From contig JACQFP010000011.1 in NCBI GenBank assembly GCA_016200005.1, positions 1-37,155 on the forward strand: a stretch of DNA of 37,155 nt, given 5' to 3'. Each line of letters starts with the position of its first letter. The stretch's first letter is position 1. Below are positions 8,186 through 24,899 of this stretch, one piece after another. The notes below the pieces were generated by a model that saw only the letters and a program-made list of their open reading frames with translations, ran no database searches and had not been told where the DNA came from. The position numbers were made by a program, and so were the translations under genes. The DNA comes from Verrucomicrobiota bacterium. GTDB lineage: Bacteria > Verrucomicrobiota > Verrucomicrobiia > Limisphaerales > PALSA-1396.

Positions 8186-9081
8186 AACGTCGTCAGCCTC
8201 CCCAATTCTCTGACGCGCTGCTCGATGTGCGCACGTCGGAGCTTCGTCGTGCGATTCAAGCCGAACCCTTCGCAGCAGAACGACGCCACGACGGTGCCAT
8301 AGACGACGGCGCGGCGCAGGTTGGCGTCAATCGAACCGCGCCCCGTCGCCAGATAGCCCATCATGCCGCCGACGAATGAATCGCCCGCCCCCGTCGGATC
8401 GATCACGCGCGGCAGCGGAAACGCCGGCGCGATGAAGACACCTTTTGGCCCGGAAACAATCGCGCCATGCTCGCCCTTCTTGATGATCACGTACTTCGGG
8501 CCAAGCTGGTGAAGTTTTTTGATGGCGGTCACGACGTTGTCAGCCTTGGTGAGTTGATAAGCCTCACTGTCGTTGAGCACGAAGCAATCAATCCGTTTCA
8601 GCAATTTGAGCAAATCTTTGAGCGCGATGTTCAGCCACAAATCCATCGTGTCGGCGGCGATGAATTTTGGCCGGCGCATCTGGTCGAGCACATGAAGTTG
8701 CAGCGCCGGAGCGATGTTCGCCAGCAGCACGAAGGGCGAAGCCTGATACGCCTGGGGCAACGTGGGGGTGAACGTTTCGAAGACCCCCAGTTCCGTCAGC
8801 AGCGTCCGGCGATTGTTCATGTTGGTTTCGTATTCGCCCGACCAGTGAAAGGTCTTGCCGGGCAGCCTCTGCAAACCTTCGAGATCAATACCGTGCCGGC
8901 GGTAAAGCTGGACGTAACGCTTTGGAAAATCATGCCCAACCACGCCGACGAGTTTGACCGGCCCAAAGAAACTGGCCGCCACCGCCGCGTGACTGGCGGA
9001 GCCGCCCAACAGGCGCGGATTTTCGGCCTTTGGAGTTTTGATGGAATCGAGGGCTGTCGAGCCGACAACAAGAACGCTCAT
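8182..9081 (-). CDS. PfkB-family carbohydrate kinase
   Basis: A 299-aa ribokinase-like sugar kinase. Visible hallmarks: N-terminal VGSTALDSI, the glycine-rich LLGGSASHAAVAASFFG substrate region, the NDSEAYQLT motif and the C-terminal DPTGAGDSFVGG signature with the catalytic aspartate and anion hole. The enzyme should phosphorylate a sugar or nucleoside with ATP; the subgroup cannot be named, but the opening residues resemble adenosine-kinase-like PfkB proteins of Verrucomicrobiota. The gene stands alone on its strand, followed convergently by the toxin relic. The ATG begins the first beta strand, so the start is secure. Confidence 0.92.
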   Translation of the reverse strand: MSVLVVGSTALDSIKTPKAENPRLLGGSASHAAVAASFFGPVKLVGVVGHDFPKRYVQLYRRHGIDLEGLQRLPGKTFHWSGEYETNMNNRRTLLTELGVFETFTPTLPQAYQASPFVLLANIAPALQLHVLDQMRRPKFIAADTMDLWLNIALKDLLKLLKRIDCFVLNDSEAYQLTKADNVVTAIKKLHQLGPKYVIIKKGEHGAIVSGPKGVFIAPAFPLPRVIDPTGAGDSFVGGMMGYLATGRGSIDANLRRAVVYGTVVASFCCEGFGLNRTTKLRRAHIEQRVRELGRLTTF

Positions 9082-9984: not shown

Positions 9985-11028
9985 CTACCGCGTCTTTGCA
10001 AACATGACCCGCCACAACCATGACCAGCGCGGCGCCAGAAACACCAGTGCGTTTTGCAGTCCCGGCGCGAACATCATCCGCTGAAGCCACGTCGCCCACA
10101 CGAGCCGTCGCGTAAATGCTTCGTCGCAACGGCGCGCGATGGTTTGTTGCGCTTCTGACCACGAAATTTCACCCTGACTGTAAGCCGCCAACGGTTTAAT
10201 GGCGATTTCCGCCGACTCGAAGGCCATCGACATGCCGTTGCCCGTCACCGGCGGGATCATGGTCAGTGCGTCGCCAACACAACACTCCGTTCGGTTGGTC
10301 GCGTGTTGGGCCGTCAACAGCAATCCCGCGACGGAACAAAACGAGTCCAAGTCAAATTCCGCTGACGCCAACCGGCGTTGCAGGAGTGAATCCGCCGGGC
10401 CACGCAATTGCTCCTGCCACTGCGCCGGTAAATCCGCGGCGTTCGTGTGCCGACGGAACAAACCGCACACGTTGACCTCCGTCTCGTTCAACCGGCAGAT
10501 CCCGACGTAGCCGTTGGGTGAGACGTGCATTTCCAGGTCCGCTTTGATTTGGACATTTCGCGCGTGAGCTTTCAACCCAAACCAGCGCCAGCCGTTGACG
10601 ACTGGCTGAAGCCGTCGCCCGCTCGCGCGCACGACGCCGTCGGCGGATTGATCGTCGCGCCACCGGTGGTTTTCCCTCAACTCACCACCAAGTTCATGGA
10701 ATTGTTCCGCCAGCAAACTGTCCACGGTGTAACGCGACAAACAAAGGGCAGGTTGCGGCAGGTGGCGAGGTGGCGATTCAACTTTGGACGCGAAGAAGGC
10801 CGCAGTTCGCGCCGGTTGCGCGCCAGCTCGAAGAAAAAGTTCGCGCAAACCCAGCCGCGCGAGCGTTGCCTGCCCCCGCCCGCTGATGAATTCGCCGCAA
10901 ACGCGATGGCGCGGATAGCGCCCCGCTTCCCATACCGTCGCCGGCACGCCGCGTAGGCGCAGACCAATGCCCAACGTTAAACCGGCCAGCCCGCCGCCGA
11001 CAATCGTGATGGGTTTGGAAGCGCTCAT
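9985..11028 (-). CDS. FAD-dependent oxidoreductase of the polyketide cluster
   Basis: About 347 aa. The N-terminal FAD-binding fold is clear (ITIVGGGLAGLTLGIGLRLRG, then the ribose-binding glutamate in VWEAGRYPR), as is the second FAD motif GDALTMIPPVTGNGMSMAFESAEIA. This layout is that of the geranylgeranyl-reductase / aromatic hydroxylase group. The gene begins 12 bp after the methyltransferase gene and is third in a PKS-methyltransferase-oxidoreductase operon, so it probably hydroxylates or otherwise oxidises the polyketide ring, as SrsC does in Streptomyces griseus; that role is inferred from context. ATG at the MSASKP start was preferred over an upstream TTG. Confidence 0.88.
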   Translation of the reverse strand: MSASKPITIVGGGLAGLTLGIGLRLRGVPATVWEAGRYPRHRVCGEFISGRGQATLARLGLRELFLRAGAQPARTAAFFASKVESPPRHLPQPALCLSRYTVDSLLAEQFHELGGELRENHRWRDDQSADGVVRASGRRLQPVVNGWRWFGLKAHARNVQIKADLEMHVSPNGYVGICRLNETEVNVCGLFRRHTNAADLPAQWQEQLRGPADSLLQRRLASAEFDLDSFCSVAGLLLTAQHATNRTECCVGDALTMIPPVTGNGMSMAFESAEIAIKPLAAYSQGEISWSEAQQTIARRCDEAFTRRLVWATWLQRMMFAPGLQNALVFLAPRWSWLWRVMFAKTR

Positions 11029-11040
11029 GACCAAACAACT

Positions 11041-11736
11041 TCATTCATTTCGCGACGCAGCGAACAAGTGGCTAAACAATCCAGTTGCTCCCTCACTCAG
11101 CTTCCATTTGGCTTCGTCTGGCCACAGGGTCGAAAGCTCATTGCCTGTGAAACCCGCGCGCACGCTGATCACCGCGTCGTGCCGGGTGACCGCGTTGCAC
11201 CCAATCAAACCCAGCAAATGGCTCACCGTCCACGGCAGCAAGGTGCGACGCGGCTCGCACGCCACAAACAATTTAGTGTTCGCCGCGGCGCGACGCAACA
11301 GCTCGGACAATTGTTTGTCGGAGAAATGGTGCAGAAACAAATTGGCGACGATCGCTTCATGTCGGTCCGAGGTCCCGGAACGCAGCCAGTCGAACACGTC
11401 CGCCTTCACCACCTCGAGTTCCCAGTCCAAAGCATGAAAAGCGTCGCGAGTCTCCTTGCCGACCAGGCTCTGCTGGTCCACAAGAATCACATCCGCGCGC
11501 GGCCGATGCGGTGACAGTCGTTGCGCCACGCTCAGCAACAGCGTTCCGTCGCCCGCGCCCAGTTCCACGAGTCGTCCACAGTTCGCGTTCGCTTCAGTAT
11601 TGAGAAGTTGTTGCGCGATGATCTCCGCGTGGCGCATCAAGCGGTTGACCCGCTGCAAATCCTTCCGCGACCTCACCGCCCGTGGATCGTCCGGCGGCAA
11701 TTCATCCAGCAATTCCGGTTCAACGATGCGTTTCAT
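11041..11736 (-). CDS. SAM-dependent methyltransferase of the polyketide cluster
   Basis: A class I methyltransferase of about 231 aa. SAM-binding motif I is LVELGAGDGTLLL, followed by an acidic motif II region (DVILVDQQ), VVKADVFDWL and VANLFLHHFSDKQL. The C-terminal half has hydrophobic stretches that could contact a lipid substrate. It lies between the type III polyketide synthase and the FAD oxidoreductase in the same direction, so O- or C-methylation of an alkylresorcinol or alkylpyrone product is the likely role. The frame is open upstream to a GTG at 11787, but that extra 17-residue part is made of heptanucleotide repeats, so the ATG (MKRIVEPEL) is the better start. Confidence 0.88.
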   Translation of the reverse strand: MKRIVEPELLDELPPDDPRAVRSRKDLQRVNRLMRHAEIIAQQLLNTEANANCGRLVELGAGDGTLLLSVAQRLSPHRPRADVILVDQQSLVGKETRDAFHALDWELEVVKADVFDWLRSGTSDRHEAIVANLFLHHFSDKQLSELLRRAAANTKLFVACEPRRTLLPWTVSHLLGLIGCNAVTRHDAVISVRAGFTGNELSTLWPDEAKWKLSEGATGLFSHLFAASRNE

Positions 11737-15847: not shown

Positions 15848-17044
15848 TCAAATAAGGCGTCCGTTGCAATTCTGGCGCCGTAGTAACGATACTTTGCCCG
15901 TCCGCCACAAGCCGTCACCAATTCGTTTCACCTTTTTTTTCAGGTGAATGCTGCCGCCGCTGGTACGTAAGCATACAACCGGTCCGCCGCCGTTGATCTT
16001 GCCATGCAACTCGCTGGATTTGTGTTCACCCGCGACGGTAACAGGCAATTCGGTGACGACCCGGCCGCCGCTGGTTTTTGCGTCGAGATCCACCGCCACA
16101 TTTTCCGCGCAGTCCAATCGGATGCTGCCACCGGACGTTTCCAGATGACAATCTGCTTTTGGCTGGCCCGTCAAGTGGACGGAAACCGAACCGCCTGTCG
16201 TTTTGGCGACAACGTCGCCGTGAACTTCGCCCGCTTCAATGTTGCCCCCGGAAGTTTTGGCCGTCACTTTGCCGTGAGATTTCTTGATGCTGATGTTGCC
16301 GCCGGAAGTTTTGGCCTCGGCGCTGCCCTCGGCCTCACCGATCTCGATGTTTCCGCCCGACGTCTCCGCGACAACCGCGCCTTTGGCTTTATCCAGCCGG
16401 ACTGAACCGCCGGAGGTGCGCGCGAATACATTATCGCCCACTTCGCCAATCTGAATGCTGCCGCCGGATGTACGCACTTCCACTTCGCCGGAAGCACTCG
16501 TCAACGAAATACTACCGCCCGAGGTCTTGCCCCACACCGGCCCGTCGATTCTTGCCAGTTTCAAGCTGCCGCCGGAGGTTTGAGCGCGAACGGTGCCCGT
16601 CAGATCGGCTTGTGTGATGCCGCCGCCGGCGGTCTTGAGGTCCACGTTGAACTTTTTGGGAATGGAAATTTGATAGCGCACCTGCAGACCGGAGCCGCCA
16701 CGATTAAACAATCCGCCTGTGGCCCCTTGGAATTTTGCGCTGACCGTCACCAGATCTGCCTGCTGTTCAAAAGTCATCTCGTGTGCCTTGAAAATCTCGT
16801 CGGCTCGTGACTGACTCAGGCCGCGCAGCTTGCGAAACACCTGCACTTCGACTTTGTCCGTCTCGCCGGTGGTCACGTCGATCGCGCCGCGGTCGGCGTC
16901 CACAACCAATTTGCCACCGGGGCTGGCCGGAAACGATTTCTTGAGGTTGTTGTCGTATTCGCCAAGGGCAAATGCAGTCGCTGCGGTGAACAAAGCTCCC
17001 ACCAACAGCCCGGCCCGTGTGATTTTAAAAACATTTGTTTTCAT
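15848..17044 (-). CDS. DUF4097-type beta-solenoid secreted protein
   Basis: A 398-aa protein with a signal peptide (ITRAGLLVGALFTAATAFA). After an N-terminal module (residues about 30-140) the chain becomes a ladder of about a dozen short repeats each marked by [KREQ]T[SAT]GG[SNGR][ILV], spaced mostly 17-20 residues apart. This is the pattern of DUF4097 (putative adhesin), a right-handed beta-helix fold. The C-terminal tail (KKKVKRIGDGLWRTG...) is basic. It probably acts in the periplasm or at the cell surface; the function of the family is not established. It lies 79 bp behind the M28 peptidase gene on the same strand. Confidence 0.88.
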   Translation of the reverse strand: MKTNVFKITRAGLLVGALFTAATAFALGEYDNNLKKSFPASPGGKLVVDADRGAIDVTTGETDKVEVQVFRKLRGLSQSRADEIFKAHEMTFEQQADLVTVSAKFQGATGGLFNRGGSGLQVRYQISIPKKFNVDLKTAGGGITQADLTGTVRAQTSGGSLKLARIDGPVWGKTSGGSISLTSASGEVEVRTSGGSIQIGEVGDNVFARTSGGSVRLDKAKGAVVAETSGGNIEIGEAEGSAEAKTSGGNISIKKSHGKVTAKTSGGNIEAGEVHGDVVAKTTGGSVSVHLTGQPKADCHLETSGGSIRLDCAENVAVDLDAKTSGGRVVTELPVTVAGEHKSSELHGKINGGGPVVCLRTSGGSIHLKKKVKRIGDGLWRTGKVSLLRRQNCNGRLI

Positions 17045-17123
17045 ATTTAATTCTAAACGGTTTGTTCGATGCTCTACCAAAAGACACAGATTCGGCGCAG
17101 TTTGTTGCAGGAAACTTTCCGCC

Positions 17124-20087
17124 TTACTTTCTCGCTTCAGGAATCACATTCAGCGTGACCCGCTTGCCGTCGCGGAGAACAACGATGTTGAGTGGCTGGC
17201 CGATTTTGGCGGCGTCCAGTGCGTAGGTGTAATCGTAGATGTTGGCGATCTTCTGGCCGGCAAATTCCACAATCACGTCGCCGCCCTTCAGCCCACCCTT
17301 GTCCGCCGGGCTGCCGCCGCGAACGCCGGAGAGTTTCACCCCGGCGACCTCGGCGGTGTAGTCGGGAATCGTGCCGAGATAAACGCGCAAATTATCTCGC
17401 CCGCCGCCGGCGCTTTCAGCGCGCTGAACGCTCAGGTAGTCTGGTCGCGCGGACTCTTTTGCGAGATCGGAAATGATGCCCTCGGCAAAACGCGTGATGC
17501 GCTCCAGCCCGGCGTAATTCAACGTGTCAGCCCGGTCGGTTGGGCGATGATAATTCTCGTGACTGCCAGTGAAACAATTCAAGACCGGCACGTGCTTGGG
17601 ATAAAACGCCGTCACGTCCGTCGGCAGATACGGGTCTTCCTGCACGATGAGGTTGAAACCGGCAGCGACGTTGCGCTTTTCAAGCAGTCGCCGCCAGACG
17701 GACGACGAACCCGCGCCTTGCACAACGAGTTTGTTTTCACGAAGTCGTCCCACCATGTCAAAGTTCAAACACGCGACGATGTTCGACAATGCCACCTCGG
17801 GATGCTCGGCAAAGTATGACGAACCGACCAAACCCATCTCTTCACCAGACCAGAGCGCGAGGATGACACCGCGCCCGAAATTTTCCGGCTTTTGCTTTCG
17901 CTCGGCAGCGAGGGCGGCGGACAATTCCAAGACCGCGGCGACGCCTGATGCGTTGTCGTCCGCGCCGTTGTGAATCTGGCCTTCCTCCTCTTTTCGTTCC
18001 AGCGAACCGGACTCACCACGTCCCAGATGATCGTAATGCGCGCCGACTAAAATGTAATCCGTCACGCCTTTGGCCGGCGGCAGAACGGCAATCACATTGC
18101 GGTCGGTTTTCTTGAGGTGCTCCACCGACGCGGCGACTTTGACTTTGACGCCAGGGACGAGAAAACCACCTTCGGCGTGGGGGTTTTCTGTGTCGAGCGC
18201 CGATTGTAATGATTTCAACTCCTTCCCTGAACCGGCGAGAATGGCGTCAGCGACATTGGTGCCGATGGATGCGCCCACGATGCCGGAGCCTGCCAAACTA
18301 CTGTCAAAAGAAAGTGGCGCCAGCGCACCGGCATTGGGCGAGGTGTGACCAGTCACGACCAGCACTGCTTTCGCGCCGTGCTCGCGGGCAATCATCGCTT
18401 TGTAGCGCAAGGCGGCGTAACGATTCAGTTCCTGCCGGCGCTTCGGCTCAACACCTTCCGGCACGTAGCGCAGCACCATCACGATTTTGTTGGTCACGTC
18501 GAGACCGGTGTAAGAATTGTAGCCTTCGCCCGCTTTGCCGGGCACCGACAAACCATAACCGGCGAACACCACCTCGGCCTCAACTTCGCCGTTGTCCGTG
18601 AACGAAAGTGGACGAAAATCCTTTTCGATGACGAATGTCTTTGGAGTCGATGGAACCGAAGCTTGGACCACCGCAAACGTGTTTTCGTTGGTGACGATCC
18701 GGACGCCGGAGTTGAAACTAAAACTTTGGAAAAAAGTGTTGTTGTCGCCGAACGGTTTCAGTCCCGACTGGCGCAGCGTTTCGGCAATAAACTCAGCCGC
18801 CAATTGACTGCCGCGCGTGCCGGTCATTCGGCCCTCGAGCGCATCCGACGCCAGATAACCAACCTCGGCCCGCAAATCCGGAACAGTGATGTCCGGAGAG
18901 AGTTTTGTCGCTTTGGATTCCGCGCGTGTAACTGTCGGTGTCTGACTCGCTGTTTGAAGCTTTGTTGGACTGCTGCGCATTGGCGCCGCGCCGAGTGATG
19001 CCAAGGCGTGTTCATGATTCCAGTAGGCCAGGAAAAGTTGGGACTTGCCGTCCGGCGTGCGGCCGGATGTCCAGCAAAGTTGCTTGCCATCCGGCGAGAA
19101 CACCGGCAATCCGTCAAAGCCATCCGTGAACGTGACGCGGACAGGTTCGTGTTTGCCGGCGGCATCGACGAGAAACAGTTCGAAATTCGAAAAGCCGAGT
19201 TTGTTCGCCGTGAAGATGACGTATTTGCCCGACGGATGAAAATACGGCGCCCACGACATGCAACCAAAGTCCGTCAACCGCCGCTCATCCGAGCCATCCA
19301 GCTTCATCGTATAAACGTCCGCGATGGTGCCGGTCTCGTTGAACCGCCGCCAAATGATGCGCTTTCCGTCCGGCGAAAAGAACGGGCCGCCATCGTAGCC
19401 CGGTGTATGCGTCAGGCGGCGCTGGTTCGAGCCATCGGCCTTCATGATGTAGATTTCGCCGAAGTAGGATGGATCGGTTTCGAGATGTTTGCGCTCGGCA
19501 GCGGAGAGTTTGTTCGTCGGGTAAGCGTCGCGCAGCGAGGTGAACACAATCTTTTTGCCATCGGGCGAATAACTCGCTTCGGCATCGTAACCGAAGGCGT
19601 CAGTCAGTCGCCGCAGATGGCTGCCGTCGCGATGCGCGGAAAAAATGTCCATCTGCTCGTCGTAGTCCCAGGAGTAGCGGCGTTCCTTGCCCGACGCGCG
19701 GAAATCGAGTTCGGTTTTTTGTTTGGCCTTGGCTTGCGGGTCGAGATGAGTGGAGGCGAAGAGAACTTCGTCCGAGCGCGGACGGAAAAAACCGCAGGTT
19801 GTTTTGCCGACACCGGGCGAAACGCGGTGGCTCTCGCCGGTTGCCAGGTCGAGAATGTAAATCTGGTAAAAGGGATTGTCCGCTTCGCGTTCGCTTTGAA
19901 AGATCAACGCCTTGCCATCGGGCGAAAAATAACCTTCGCCGCTGCGGCGGCCTTCGTAAATCAACTGGCGGGTGTTCGACAGAAACGATCCTTCATTGTT
20001 CAGATTGGTCTCCGCTGCGTTCGCAGTCGCGCAGAGCGACAGGAGGAAACAAATGTTGGCGGCGATTGGGAAATGAGTCAGCTTCAT
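17124..20087 (-). CDS. Secreted TolB-like propeller / M28 aminopeptidase / PDZ fusion
   Basis: A 987-aa exported protein (signal ICFLLSLCATANA). Order: WD40-like PD40 beta-propeller repeats at about residues 40-360 (recurring YFSPDGK, YSPDGKKI, FFSPDGKRI, VFSPDGKQL); an M28 zinc aminopeptidase at about 400-880 with an inserted PA domain; a PDZ domain at about 895-985. The zinc ligands of M28 are present: VGAHYDHLG, NGADDNASGV, LWSGEEMGLVG, NFDMVGR and SHENYHRPTD. It should remove N-terminal residues from peptides in the periplasm or outside the cell, with the propeller and PDZ choosing or holding substrates. No partner gene is evident. Confidence 0.92.
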   Translation of the reverse strand: MKLTHFPIAANICFLLSLCATANAAETNLNNEGSFLSNTRQLIYEGRRSGEGYFSPDGKALIFQSEREADNPFYQIYILDLATGESHRVSPGVGKTTCGFFRPRSDEVLFASTHLDPQAKAKQKTELDFRASGKERRYSWDYDEQMDIFSAHRDGSHLRRLTDAFGYDAEASYSPDGKKIVFTSLRDAYPTNKLSAAERKHLETDPSYFGEIYIMKADGSNQRRLTHTPGYDGGPFFSPDGKRIIWRRFNETGTIADVYTMKLDGSDERRLTDFGCMSWAPYFHPSGKYVIFTANKLGFSNFELFLVDAAGKHEPVRVTFTDGFDGLPVFSPDGKQLCWTSGRTPDGKSQLFLAYWNHEHALASLGAAPMRSSPTKLQTASQTPTVTRAESKATKLSPDITVPDLRAEVGYLASDALEGRMTGTRGSQLAAEFIAETLRQSGLKPFGDNNTFFQSFSFNSGVRIVTNENTFAVVQASVPSTPKTFVIEKDFRPLSFTDNGEVEAEVVFAGYGLSVPGKAGEGYNSYTGLDVTNKIVMVLRYVPEGVEPKRRQELNRYAALRYKAMIAREHGAKAVLVVTGHTSPNAGALAPLSFDSSLAGSGIVGASIGTNVADAILAGSGKELKSLQSALDTENPHAEGGFLVPGVKVKVAASVEHLKKTDRNVIAVLPPAKGVTDYILVGAHYDHLGRGESGSLERKEEEGQIHNGADDNASGVAAVLELSAALAAERKQKPENFGRGVILALWSGEEMGLVGSSYFAEHPEVALSNIVACLNFDMVGRLRENKLVVQGAGSSSVWRRLLEKRNVAAGFNLIVQEDPYLPTDVTAFYPKHVPVLNCFTGSHENYHRPTDRADTLNYAGLERITRFAEGIISDLAKESARPDYLSVQRAESAGGGRDNLRVYLGTIPDYTAEVAGVKLSGVRGGSPADKGGLKGGDVIVEFAGQKIANIYDYTYALDAAKIGQPLNIVVLRDGKRVTLNVIPEARK

Positions 20088-20130: not shown

Positions 20131-21468
20131 TCAAAGCGTCCAGCCCTTGCGATATTGACGATGGATGATGCGGTCGGCTTCGGGACAGTTCTTCGCCTTG
20201 AGTTTGACGGGGTCCCAAATCAATTTCTTGCCGACGCGGTAAGCCACGTTCCCAAGGTGATTCGCTTCGGTCAACCAGCCGGAATACTCGAAGTTTGCGC
20301 TGCAGGATTTGCCAGTGCGGCAGGCTTGCAACCATTCGTTGTGATGGCCGGACACGCGGGGGATCGTCGATGCGGGGCGTTGGAAACCGGCGAAATCCTT
20401 TTCCGGCAGCAAGGTGTGCTTTCCGTAATCGGCGAGGATCATTCCTTTGCTGCCGATGAACAGGCAGCCGCTGTCCCACTGCGGGATGCCGCCGCTCTTC
20501 CAGATTTCCGGTTTGTTTTCGCCTTGATGCCAGGTGAGTTTCACCGGCGGCAACTCGCCGCGCGCGCCGTATTCGTAGGTGGCGCTCATCGAGGCGGGCG
20601 CGATTTCCGGATGCGGCGGCGGACCGCTCGCTTCGATGGTGAGCGGGGCTTGCAACTTGAGCGCCCAAAACGGGAGATCGTTCCAATGGCTGCCGAGATC
20701 GCTCATCGTGCCGTTGCCGAAGTCCCACCAGCGATACCACTTCGGGCCGGGGAAATAGACCGCGTTGAACGGCCGAAACGGCGCCGGGCCGAGCCACAAG
20801 TCCCAATCCAATCCTTACGGCACGGGGTGCGATTCCGTGGGCCGCTCGACGACCCAGACGATGTCGTTGTGTCGCTTGGCGTCCGCCTCGCTCTGCCAAC
20901 CCCACGCGCGGCCCACCCACACATGCGCCTCGCGCACCGGGCCGATGATGCCGCTCTGCACGAGTTCCACCACCTGCCGGTAATTCTCCGTGGCGTGAAT
21001 CTGGATGCCCATCTGCGTGGCGACCTTGGCCTTCGCTGCCGCCTCGCGAATCTTGCGCGCCTCCCAGATGTTGTGCGTGAGCGGCTTCTCACAATAGACG
21101 TGCTTGCCGTGCTTGAGCGCGAGCATCGTTGCGAAGGCGTGGGTGTGTTCGCACGTGCTGACCACGACGGCGTCGAACTCGTTAGCGTGATCAAACACCT
21201 TCCGGAAATCGGCAAACTTGCGCGCTTTGGGAAACTTCGCCGCGGCCCGGTCCAGGTTCTTGCCGTTCACGTCGCACAGCGCGACGATGTTTTCGGAAGC
21301 CACGGATTCGAGATTGCTGCCGCCGCGTCCGCCCGCAGCGATGACGGCGATGTTGAGTTTGTTGTTCAGGTTTTGCCCGCGCAGGAACGCCGGCGCGACG
21401 CCAGTGGCGACGGCGGTGGCGAGAATGGTGCGGGTGAATTGTCGGCGCGTGAGGAGGTTGGGTTTCAT
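20131..21468 (-). pseudogene. Tat-exported Gfo/Idh/MocA oxidoreductase interrupted by one in-frame stop
   Basis: Two halves in the same frame add up to a full Gfo/Idh/MocA protein (about 445 codons). N-terminal half: Tat signal ([25 protein letters not shown]), NAD(P) fold [14 protein letters not shown], and the EKPLTHN motif with the catalytic lysine. C-terminal half: [17 protein letters not shown] through QYRKGWTL, the usual C-terminal domain of these Verrucomicrobial proteins. They are separated by a single TAA at 20815-20817 in the context HPVP-stop-GLDW, where related proteins normally carry a lysine or another charged residue; AAA to TAA is one substitution. No frameshift is needed. It may be a recent nonsense mutation or a base-call error. 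Confidence 0.85.
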
Positions 21469-21502
21469 AAATTGGTTTGGATTCGGCGGTGCAGCGCTAT
21501 GG

Positions 21503-22228
21503 TTAGGCATTCGGTGAAAAGTCATCGCCGCCACTTTCAAGAATCCAGAAATCAAATTCCAGCAAGTCCCGCGATGCACCTCGTGTGTCATCTTCAATCT
21601 TCACAATCCTTGCGGCAGCATAGCGAGAGGCGTGATTCTCGAACACGACAATCTGCCCAATTCGTGGAGTGCGGACGCGGGACGTAAAATCAAGCAGGCT
21701 GGCATCTGAAATGGCCGAAAGCTCGGTGCCCATCGGTGCAACCGCGAGGACAAGATTGGTGCTGTCCGAATAGCAGTGAACCGAAGTGTTGCCCGCCTTC
21801 GACCAATGAGTCAGAAACTCGCAATTGCCACTACCAAGACGGAAGAAACCGTTATGGCTTGAGTAGTCGAGTGCGGCTCTGCCTGACATCGCTGGGTTCG
21901 ACGGGTATTGGGCAGTCGCTCGATGTAAATGGGTCGATAAATCATGCGATCGGCGCGCGACAACTGCATACCAGTCATCACGCCGCTGGATCAGCTCCTC
22001 TCTGTGATATGGAGTGCTTCCAGATGGATGCCGTGGATTGAACGCCATCACTTCAGCGTGGCAGTCGGGACACAATGGAATGCAGTTCTCGAACGTATCG
22101 GGACCGCCATCTGCTTCAGGCAGAATGTGGTGGCACTGAAGTCGGGTGTGCTTTCGCTCATGGCATAAGCAGCAGTGTCGCTGACAGGCGACCAGGGCTC
22201 GCAGACGCACATCGAGTGGAAAGGGCAT
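21503..22228 (-). CDS. HNH endonuclease in a cassette-like context
   Basis: A 241-aa protein with an N-terminal HNH nuclease: zinc cysteines in CCLCHERK and CPDCHAEV, catalytic histidines in [23 protein letters not shown]. This is the McrA-like HNH fold, a metal-dependent nuclease. The remaining 170 residues have no recognised domain. The gene lies between two damaged Gfo/Idh/MocA genes. Its TAA stop lies within GCCTAAC, and its start codon is preceded by the complementary GTTAGGC, which is the boundary pattern of an integron gene cassette. Function may be defence-related or selfish; the sequence alone does not say. Confidence 0.88.
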
Positions 22229-22238
22229 GTCAGTCTTT

Positions 22239-22326
22239 GCCTAACGTCCAACTCAGGCACGCGGGGCTGATGACGTAATCCGCGATAGCGGAACTGGAGA
22301 GGCCATCCCGCGTTGCCTGCAGCCAT
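22239..22326 (-). other. Candidate attC-like recombination site
   Basis: Read on the minus strand between the two cassette-like genes, this stretch holds an imperfect stem (AGGCAACGCGGG pairing with CCCCGCGTGCCT, one unpaired base) and ends GAGTTGGACGTTAGGC. The terminal GTTAGGC fits the integron consensus GTTRRRY. The expected left box RYYYAAC next to the upstream gene's stop codon is not convincing (ATGTAAA). Length is within the attC range. Without a covariance search it remains a candidate. Confidence 0.4.
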
Positions 22327-22749
22327 TTACATGCTTTCATCTCGCTTCAAGTGACTCAAATGCGAATCATAAAATACCCACCGCCCACCAGGGCAGCACT
22401 CCGCAAAATATGACCAGATGAGGTCTGTATAATCAGGTGCTCCTTCGATGAATGCAACGGCAGTCTCAAAACAAGGGCGCTCCGCGAAAACCTGCCAACC
22501 TTGCCCAAACTCAACTCGATAAATTACCTCCCCACCTTGACTTGCAGCTTGGCGAGTAGCGAAGTCAAAGAATGTCTGAAGTTCCCGCTTAGCCAACTGG
22601 AAGTCGCAAGCTCGAAGCTTCACTCTCCAATCCTCAGGTATATCTATCCGAACGGACGATGGCGCGGCTGGGATTTGGCGAAGCTCCTTCATCCAATCTT
22701 CAGGATCTGTGCTTGCTGGCGGATGACTTTTTTTCTTGAAGGGCCACAT
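22327..22749 (-). CDS. Hypothetical protein, cassette-like gene
   Basis: A 140-aa soluble protein with no motif I can name: a lysine-rich start (MWPFKKKS), a helical middle (LAKRELQTFFDFATRQAA) and a C-terminal half with aromatic residues (YTDLIWSYFAECCPGGRWVFYDSHLSH). The start codon is 6 bases after GTTAGGT, which fits the 5' edge of an integron cassette. It follows the same direction as the HNH gene and lies between it and the truncated Gfo/Idh/MocA relic. Possibly an immunity or adaptor protein, but that is guesswork. Confidence 0.7.
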   Translation of the reverse strand: MWPFKKKSHPPASTDPEDWMKELRQIPAAPSSVRIDIPEDWRVKLRACDFQLAKRELQTFFDFATRQAASQGGEVIYRVEFGQGWQVFAERPCFETAVAFIEGAPDYTDLIWSYFAECCPGGRWVFYDSHLSHLKRDESM

Positions 22750-22764
22750 ATAGCACCTAACTAT

Positions 22765-23007
22765 TCATGTACGACTGGTTGTTCGTGTATTGGAGTTGGC
22801 GGAATGAACACCAACTCCGGGCAGCGTATCCTTCAGGCCGCCGCGTCCGCCCGCGCCAATGATCGCGATATTGAGTTTTTCGTTGAGCGATTTTCCACGC
22901 AGCAAAGCGGGACTGGCGAAAGTGGCGACGCCGGCAACAAGTGCAGTCGAACGCAAGAATTGACGACGAGTGAGGTAGTTGGGCGAAGCGAACCGTGTTG
23001 TGGTCAT
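22765..23007 (-). pseudogene. 5' remnant of a second Gfo/Idh/MocA oxidoreductase
   Basis: Residues 1-57 match the N-terminus of these oxidoreductases closely: twin-arginine signal (YLTRRQFLRSTALVAGVATFASPALL), RGKSLNEKLNIAIIGAGGRGG. They also resemble the intact-length paralogue at 20131-21468. Right after the nucleotide-binding GGRGG the sequence changes (to about base 2837 of the 22 kb region, i.e. 22837) and the frame ends with 23 unrelated residues. The missing 350 or more residues were lost when the HNH-containing block came in. A hairpin (GGAGTTGG / CCAACTCC) lies at the junction. Confidence 0.85.
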
Positions 23008-23082
23008 GCCTGTTCCCTACGCTTTACGCCTGCCCTTCACAAGGAGATTTTGTCACCACACACGAGCAGCCGCGCCGTGCGT

Positions 23083-23925
23083 TCAGTTGTTCACTCTGGC
23101 GCCAGTCTTCTTCAATGCGGAGACCTGCCCGCCCTTCGGTGAGTTCCCCTTCAAATAAATATTGATGAATGGTGCGAAGCGCTTCGGACCATCGTTGTCT
23201 TTCTTCACCATGTTCACCAGTGGAGTGAAATCGCGGATCTTGTTGTTTTCCAAAAACAGATAGTAGAGGCCCATCAAACCGTCGAGCGGAGCGATGTCGG
23301 AAATGGAATTGTTGTTCAGGGACAGCGAGGTCAGGCTCGTCAAGCCGTTGATGCCTTGAATGCTCTTGATCTGGTTGTGGTCGAGATACAGAGAGGCAAG
23401 CTTGGGAAACTTGACGACCGGCGAGATGTCGCTGATCTGGTTTTGAGAAAGATAAAGGGAGGCCATGTTGGTGAGTGCGCTCAACGGCCGCAAATCCTTC
23501 ACGCGATTGCGCGACAGCTCGATGTATTGCAGGGCCATGACACTGCTCAAGGGCGAGATGTCCTCGATCTGGTTGTCCGCGAGGTTCAAGTATTGAATCT
23601 TCGTCAATGTTTTGAGCGGCTGCAGGTCGGTGATTTTGTTTTTCGCCAGGTCGAGTGAGGCGAGGTTCTGGCATTTTTCCAAACCGGTGAGGTTCGTGAT
23701 GCCCATGCCGTTGCCTTGAATGGTGGAGAGGTTGACGAGGTCGGCTTCGACTAACGGCTTGTCGTTGTCGCGTTTCTCAAAGACAAATTTGCGCACGGCT
23801 TTCTCCAGATTGGCGTCGGAAAAAATCGGCGCGTTCGTGTCGGCGGATTGAGCAGGCGAACAGATGCTGCCCAGCAGAACGGCAGCGAGGGAGATTCGAC
23901 TGAGTTTTCCAACGATGTTTTTCAT
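23083..23925 (-). CDS. Secreted leucine-rich repeat protein
   Basis: A 280-aa exported protein (signal LSRISLAAVLLGSICSPAQSA) with about eight leucine-rich repeats of 22 residues in the internalin/SDS22 pattern (LASLDLAKNKITDLQPLKTL, then six or seven more LxxLxLxxNxIxDIxPL units). An N-terminal cap begins DANLEKAVRKFVFEK. The C-terminus has no LPXTG or membrane anchor, which fits a Gram-negative cell. LRR proteins bind other proteins; the partner is unknown. The start ATG at MKNIVGKL gives the signal peptide; the longer frame upstream runs antisense into lepB. It diverges from lepB across a 67-bp gap. Confidence 0.9.
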   Translation of the reverse strand: MKNIVGKLSRISLAAVLLGSICSPAQSADTNAPIFSDANLEKAVRKFVFEKRDNDKPLVEADLVNLSTIQGNGMGITNLTGLEKCQNLASLDLAKNKITDLQPLKTLTKIQYLNLADNQIEDISPLSSVMALQYIELSRNRVKDLRPLSALTNMASLYLSQNQISDISPVVKFPKLASLYLDHNQIKSIQGINGLTSLTSLSLNNNSISDIAPLDGLMGLYYLFLENNKIRDFTPLVNMVKKDNDGPKRFAPFINIYLKGNSPKGGQVSALKKTGARVNN

Positions 23926-24787: not shown

Positions 24788-24827
24788 GGATGGGATTGGT
24801 TACTTCAACACGATTCCGAAAAGCCGA

Positions 24828-24899
24828 ACCCACCCCCAACCCCTCCCAGGAGGGGAGCGACGCACGATGTGATGTTCCTCTCCTGGGTTAGGGGTGGGT
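24828..24899. terminator. Palindrome between convergent genes; probable bidirectional terminator
   Basis: Left arm ACCCACCCCCAACCCCTCCC and the right arm ending TTAGGGGTGGGT pair over roughly 25 bases with one short bulge. It fills the gap between the stops of lepB and the DCC/LMF gene, which run towards each other. There is no U-tract, so Rho-independent termination is not certain. It is built like the CCCCTCACCC family at 29705 and 37069 and may be a divergent member. Confidence 0.55.

Follow-up and report, generated by a model that had tools for sequence, protein, structure and literature searches.

The window, by which we mean the whole stretch of DNA that was analysed (37,155 nucleotides, on contig C11 of its genome), contains two small minus-strand genes between two Gfo/Idh genes. 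The named relatives and the gene content point to Verrucomicrobiota as the source. The remnant of the first Gfo/Idh gene is followed by the block with the two small genes, then by the second Gfo/Idh gene, and then by a gene for a protein of 987 residues (17124-20087). Both Gfo/Idh genes are broken, in agreement with the initial annotation of this DNA. Of the first gene (22839-23007, minus strand), about 56 codons are left, which by direct reading encode a TAT-like signal and, after it, the glycine-rich motif at the start of the NAD-binding fold. The second gene (20131-21468, minus strand) is interrupted by an in-frame TAA at 20815-20817, with the Pfam families PF01408 and PF19051 on its two pieces. 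Homologues of it without interruption are present in genomes G001 and G003, and among the loci fetched it is nearest to G020 (79-81% amino-acid identity).

G001, the sole genome of the same genus in our set, shows the site with a single intact gene. The stretch 22839-23850, which includes the remnant of the first Gfo/Idh gene, is 81% identical to contig C335 of G001, where this gene is intact, and the homology to the intact gene stops at 22839. The block replaces most of a Gfo/Idh gene, as had been proposed. The order in G001 is an LRR gene, the intact Gfo/Idh gene of 437 codons, and a homologue of window positions 16006-17088, and our attC model R1, described below, found no match on this contig. 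The second Gfo/Idh gene and the 987-residue gene are also absent from the G001 locus, so that the small genes are not the sole difference between the two genomes, a point against the explanation favoured below. The second Gfo/Idh gene, being nearest to G020, may be an extra paralogue that was lost in G001 or gained in the genome of the window. Outside the block, a short repeat at 24826-24899 occurs at several further places in the same genome with 74-87% identity.

The two small genes are separated by a stretch in which an imperfect stem had been noticed. This stretch (22239-22330, minus strand) is identified here as an attC site, a structure defined by pairing R''/R' and L''/L' arms, unpaired spacers, and extrahelical bases (attC architecture as in PMC11641012), on the basis of two covariance models that were built in this analysis and used in place of those of IntegronFinder or HattCI, which the initial annotation had named for this check. 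Model R1, applied with cmsearch, gave the stretch as its sole match in the window at E values up to 5 (45.7 bits, E 3.9e-11) and recovered it also in an unfiltered search. The R1 seed consists of 16 attC sites of other loci and none from the window, but it includes sites that were first found by similarity to the window. Model R2 was therefore built from nine sites obtained from a box-and-stem scan or by a left-arm motif, and it likewise had this stretch as its sole window match, though at only 22.8 bits (E 1.9e-4). The L arms pair and leave the same two bases unpaired as in the model. The R' box GTTAGGC lies at 22239-22245, and the R'' arm is degenerate, with 5 unpaired positions in the R1 alignment. 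In the R1 seed alignment, 90.4% of the cells pair, changes on both sides occur in 11 of 21 pairs, and the covariation score was reached by none of 500 shuffles, a result favoured by the fact that the structure was drawn from the seed sequences themselves. A blastn search of the same genome for a second copy of the window attC returned only a 22-base match (E 0.63).

Further sites of the same attC family occur in relatives. The DNA search covered 39 genomes including the window's own, and window positions 22241-22328 matched three spots on a single 4-kb contig (G011:C146), spaced at 1.1-1.7 kb, as well as spots on G011:C147 and G011:C128 and in G038, G006, and G009, all with 78-90% identity. 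For the three sites on G011:C146 and one on G011:C147, the blastn identity is 80-90%. G011:C146 carries a fourth spot that is 74% identical to the window attC. The matching spots mostly finish with GTTAGGC or a variant of it, with the spot in G009 as an exception. The box-and-stem scan covered contigs that had been selected because they carry an integrase. Sites of this type turned up in a row next to the integron integrase of G004:C66, and also next to integrases or fragments of them in G008, G018, G024, and G029. With R1 at E<=0.01, sites were found in 31 of the 39 genomes, some of which had supplied seed sites; with 109 candidates scored per genome, the counts are lower bounds, and at that depth the other eight genomes gave none. 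In a side observation, G006 contains at least 87 attC matches (for example at C220:31776-37627), and no IntI match was obtained in that draft at E<=1e-40, so that it looks like a large store of cassettes.

The gene upstream of the attC (22327-22749, minus strand) encodes an orphan protein of 140 residues. No Pfam family scored above its cut-off, neither PADLOC nor NCBIfam gave a match, of the 293 genomes of the order that were searched only its own one had the gene, the remaining 292 being without a homologue, and plasmids gave no match. As previously noted, a GTTRRRY box, GTTAGGT at 22761-22755 (minus strand), precedes the gene. The weak point that had been named here is real, since this box is not complementary to the degenerate 3' box of the gene around 22334-22327. 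The unmatched 5' box and the degenerate R'' arm make its status less sure, and with the attC directly downstream we regard the orphan gene as probably the first cassette gene of the block.

A leader of 77 bases (22762-22838, minus strand), for which the explanation favoured below does not account, intervenes between the remnant of the first Gfo/Idh gene and the first box. It contains a perfect 8-base inverted repeat (22792-22799 and 22811-22818) and gave no blastn alignment with the intact G001 gene. We also considered the leader as a third attC and rejected this, as the unfiltered R1 search missed it and the next best match in 21300-23100 reached only 8.4 bits (E 0.15). The leader finishes in CATGAATAGTTAGGT, which loosely resembles attI ends of the clade such as CAGTTATAGTTAGGC.

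The HNH gene (21503-22228, minus strand, 241 codons) carries matched cassette boundaries. Its TAA stop codon lies in the R'' box GCCTAAC at 21502-21508, and GTTAGGC (minus strand, 22245-22239) lies 10 bases upstream of its ATG. One box is the exact complement of the other, just as the initial annotation had claimed. The rule that the TTRRRY of an inserted cassette is complementary to its own RYYYAA thus holds for the HNH gene and not for the orphan gene. The sequence after the HNH stop, GCCTAACCATAGCGCTGCACCGCC, equals the left end of the clade attC (GCCTAACCATGCGCTGCA, or with GGCTGCACCG) and provides the left arm (R'' and L'') of the attC of the HNH cassette at 21485-21508 (minus strand). 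The right arm is absent, which bears out the earlier remark that this attC has lost its right half, and the second Gfo/Idh gene begins 16 bases beyond the half site. Thus, the orphan gene has a whole attC downstream and the HNH gene a left arm only. The fetched loci contain 23 distinct left-arm motifs, and for 19 of these a right arm that pairs and carries GTT is present, a ratio that is not a genome average because most of these loci were fetched for attC or intI. The four motifs without a right arm are the one of the HNH gene, one in G008, and two that resemble coding coincidences.

The search for relatives of the HNH protein, in which 34 stretches matched the patterns, yielded two close ones. 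The homologue in a Rubritalea MAG (L047) is 50% identical over the full length. It is preceded by GTTATGC and has GCATAAC at its stop, again exact complements, although this stop box deviates from RYYYAAC at one position, and its locus has four R1 matches on 4.9 kb, among them a seed site and a weak match (18.8 bits, E 0.003). The relative in a Candidatus Didemnitutus MAG (L048) is 90% identical over HNH residues 125-241 and lies at a contig edge, with the stop box GCCTAAC, the gene start past the contig end, and no R1 match. The pattern that the initial annotation had named as a refutation, no attC match together with relatives that carry the HNH gene but lack such boxes, was not observed, since both close relatives have a box of the RYYYAAC type at the stop. 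Over the 351 nucleotides compared with L048, 42 changes are synonymous and 13 non-synonymous (dN/dS 0.06), which indicates purifying selection on the C-terminal half of the protein. Among 384 genomes of the class, the HNH protein was matched in eight: over its full length in its own genome and over at most one half in the other seven. Proteins that share a single half of it (the seven half-matching loci L099-L105, and L080) have no R1 match at E<=0.01 nearby. Based on the complementary boxes, the attC left end after the stop, and the L047 homologue with its surrounding attC sites, the HNH gene is identified as a cassette gene.

It was in principle conceivable that the boxes are there by chance, the HNH and orphan genes having come by a transposon, a phage, or homologous recombination and lying beside a terminator-like hairpin. 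We therefore counted boxes for 785 ORFs of at least 80 codons in the window and 13 other loci. Stops inside RYYYAAC do occur (7 of 785), and the two boxes of the orphan gene are unmatched, which leaves some room for chance. GTTRRRY lies within 30 bases before a possible start in 77 of 785. An exactly complementary pair was present for only two ORFs, of which one is the HNH gene and the other lies on C26, a contig of the same genome that had been fetched for its integrase fragment and is therefore not a random sample; as only the last upstream box per ORF was kept, further pairs may have been missed. Beyond the matched boxes of the HNH gene, this explanation would have to account for two covariance models that match the attC, for the members of this attC family that stand in tandem in G011, and for the homologue among attC sites, and none of the genes of the block is a transposase or a known phage gene according to Pfam. 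The attC models and the context of the homologue led us to reject acquisition by another route with chance boxes, which we consider highly improbable. In our reading, the block is very probably what decay has left of an integron cassette array with two or more cassettes that became stranded from its integrase.

No integrase had been seen in the window, and a search with TIGR02249 confirmed this for the entire contig C11, without any match or intI remnant. With the attI resemblance of the leader being weak as well, the locus does not contain a complete integron with intI and attI beside an array. Elsewhere in the same genome, where a search for IntI had been advised, two or three broken integron-integrase fragments are recognisable. 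Contigs C68 and C56 both begin within the C-terminus of IntI with the same in-frame TAA, and as 258 of their first 300 bases are identical, the shared start may reflect the assembly. The two fragments share 65-75% identity with IntI from 12 relatives and 55-57% with that of G013, compared to 29-56% with other tyrosine recombinases of the same genome. Contig C26 carries a stub of 37 residues that is 81-89% identical to these fragments. TIGR02249 at E<=0.001 also matches all 14 of 14 control genomes, none of them over the cut-off, a point against the favoured explanation, and the identification of the fragments therefore depends on score and similarity. IntI over the cut-off was found in 12 of the 39 genomes; one of these, G031, had no R1 match, which we count against the favoured explanation. 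R1 at E<5e-5 gave seven sites in the genome of the window: the window attC, a seed site on C35, single sites on C53, C4, and C32, and two on C6. The search for an empty site of the C6 pair gave no clean answer, as 17 kb separate the flanking genes in G001. The seed site on C35 (78 bits; L022, 169-2263) lies beside a tyrosine recombinase ORF and an ORF that by sequence reading is an IS91-like transposase.

There are two versions of the explanation by a stranded array, and they differ in whether an integron ever existed at this locus. An IntI from elsewhere could have put the cassettes straight into the Gfo/Idh gene by an attG-type event, and we give this version an even chance. It fits the integrase fragments on other contigs and the window contig free of TIGR02249 matches, the further attC matches on C53, C4, C32, and C35 and the pair on C6, and the sister genome without an attC match at the locus; attG sites and off-target events are also named as a source of CALIN (clusters of attC sites lacking integron integrases) in the literature, where PMC8618304 lists off-target insertion, intI loss, or rearrangement as their origins. 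Direct insertion would, however, predict host sequence up to the G of GTT, where the 77-base leader intervenes, and a whole attC at the right end, which is missing. The loosely attI-like leader end CATGAATAGTTAGGT is what the second version would draw on, in which intI, attI, and cassettes once stood here and intI was deleted. The intI fragments of the genome, all broken or cut by contig ends, agree with such decay, and on C26 a distance of about 2.5 kb separates the stub from a gene flanked by boxes. As the attI resemblance comprises few bases beyond GTTAGG and no intI remnant is left on the window contig, we regard this second version as possible rather than probable.

In both versions of the stranded array, IntI, acting in trans or from an integron formerly at the locus, would have inserted first the orphan gene together with its attC and next the HNH cassette, in the orientation of the host Gfo/Idh gene. 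A later loss would have taken the rest of the first Gfo/Idh gene and the right arm of the last attC. With this arm gone, normal excision of the HNH cassette is probably no longer possible.

The HNH protein has an N-terminal HNH nuclease domain at residues ~15-60 (PF01844, 36.8 bits, cut-off 21.4). The motif is intact, with C..C/HH/N/C..CH in order, which upholds the original naming of the gene as an endonuclease gene. NCBIfam gave a partial IscB match far below its cut-off (34.5 versus 175 bits), and the predicted structure, based on three sequences, reached a pLDDT of only 50.5 and was set aside. The C-terminal domain (residues ~102-238) had no Pfam family above the cut-off in any protein scanned, yet it recurs behind other heads. 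It is joined to TIR_2 or SEFIR in L099 (1483-2340), L104 (1474-2391), and L115 (1033-1917), and to a head in L116 (955-1944) that is PIN-like by reading, without a Pfam match. Like the TIR/SEFIR proteins WP_232469087.1, L099, and L104, with which it shares 32-44% identity over its C-terminal ~135 residues, the window protein (21503-22228) carries this shared domain; unlike them, it has an HNH nuclease head. The HNH head, in turn, has different tails in L100-L103, L117, and L080. In a tblastn search against plasmids, 12 records matched, five of them by similarity of the C-terminal part to TIR-annotated proteins and three by the HNH head.

Killing heads swapped on a shared tail are typical of anti-phage effectors. 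The swapping of the C-terminal domain onto TIR, SEFIR, and PIN-like heads in relatives therefore suggests that the HNH protein is probably an anti-phage effector, in which a DNA-cutting head would sit on a shared C-terminal sensing or adaptor domain. The three PADLOC matches all fall in residues 19-60 (the best, 8e-7, in residues 24-60), and no PADLOC system matched most of the protein. A wider reading, which we offer tentatively and hold to be rather unlikely, is that the protein belongs to an unnamed effector-swapping immune family whose domain would ride on Verrucomicrobiota cassettes that become locked in the chromosome when the right arm of the attC is lost.

Integrons are on record in Verrucomicrobiota (PMC8618304), and cassettes outside integrons have been described before, so that the block adds a member to a familiar group. 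What is new is the HNH protein with a swapped C-terminal domain that lacks a Pfam match. The block resembles a CALIN in that it has an attC and cassette genes with no integrase nearby, but it differs from a CALIN as IntegronFinder reports it in keeping one whole and one half attC. As IntegronFinder 2.0, according to PMC9024848, reports CALIN by default from two attC sites up, it would skip this block. The block also resembles the attG insertions into genomes of Loot et al. 2024 (as cited in PMC12901181 and PMC12444791), in which cassettes lie outside an integron in a host gene; unlike those, it has the intervening 77-base leader and a lost right end. With the integron cassettes carrying anti-phage genes in three 2025 papers, as cited in PMC12444791, it shares a small defence-like gene as cargo, but the HNH protein fits no named defence system, the PADLOC matches being confined to the region around the HNH motif. 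Among the literature matches listed, none dealt, by title and abstract opening, with this HNH family or with lone cassettes in the order. A clade-specific model can recognise cassettes that retain no more than one and a half attC sites and are skipped under standard settings, and such cassettes can disrupt metabolic genes on the chromosome of an environmental bacterium. Moreover, an unnamed domain is common to a nuclease and TIR-type proteins, and its putative defence role is directly testable.

We also examined GATATGGCTTAAATCTGTCAAGCGCAC as a general insertion hot spot and rejected this idea. With up to 3 mismatches, only four copies exist in three of the 39 genomes, three of them with an attC match and one, at G001:C140, without. 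All of them directly follow GTT and attC-like bases, and the sequence therefore looks like an array end. A conserved sequence of ~50 bases starting with GTTGATATGGCTTAAATCTGTCAAG, which stands directly after attC-like bases in three genomes (L108 ~1990-2045, L022 ~124-175, L124 737-790, and L125 854-919), looks like an array end, and a diverged form of it is present in L028 (G006).

The box-flanked gene on C26 (L021) deserves separate mention. It occupies 10897-11451 (minus strand), with GTTAGGC before its GTG start and GCCTAACCAAGATTGTTCGAGCGAAC after the gene, one base before the next ATG, and R1 did not match there. The gene with its boxes and half attC (10877-11461) and the intI stub (8291-8401) lie on the same contig, and nearby, by reading, a VapC-like (PIN) gene has a truncated copy of a ceramidase-like gene on one side and a full one on the other. 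Such a second case of boxes and a half attC around a gene in the same genome hints that the proposed locking of cassettes may recur.
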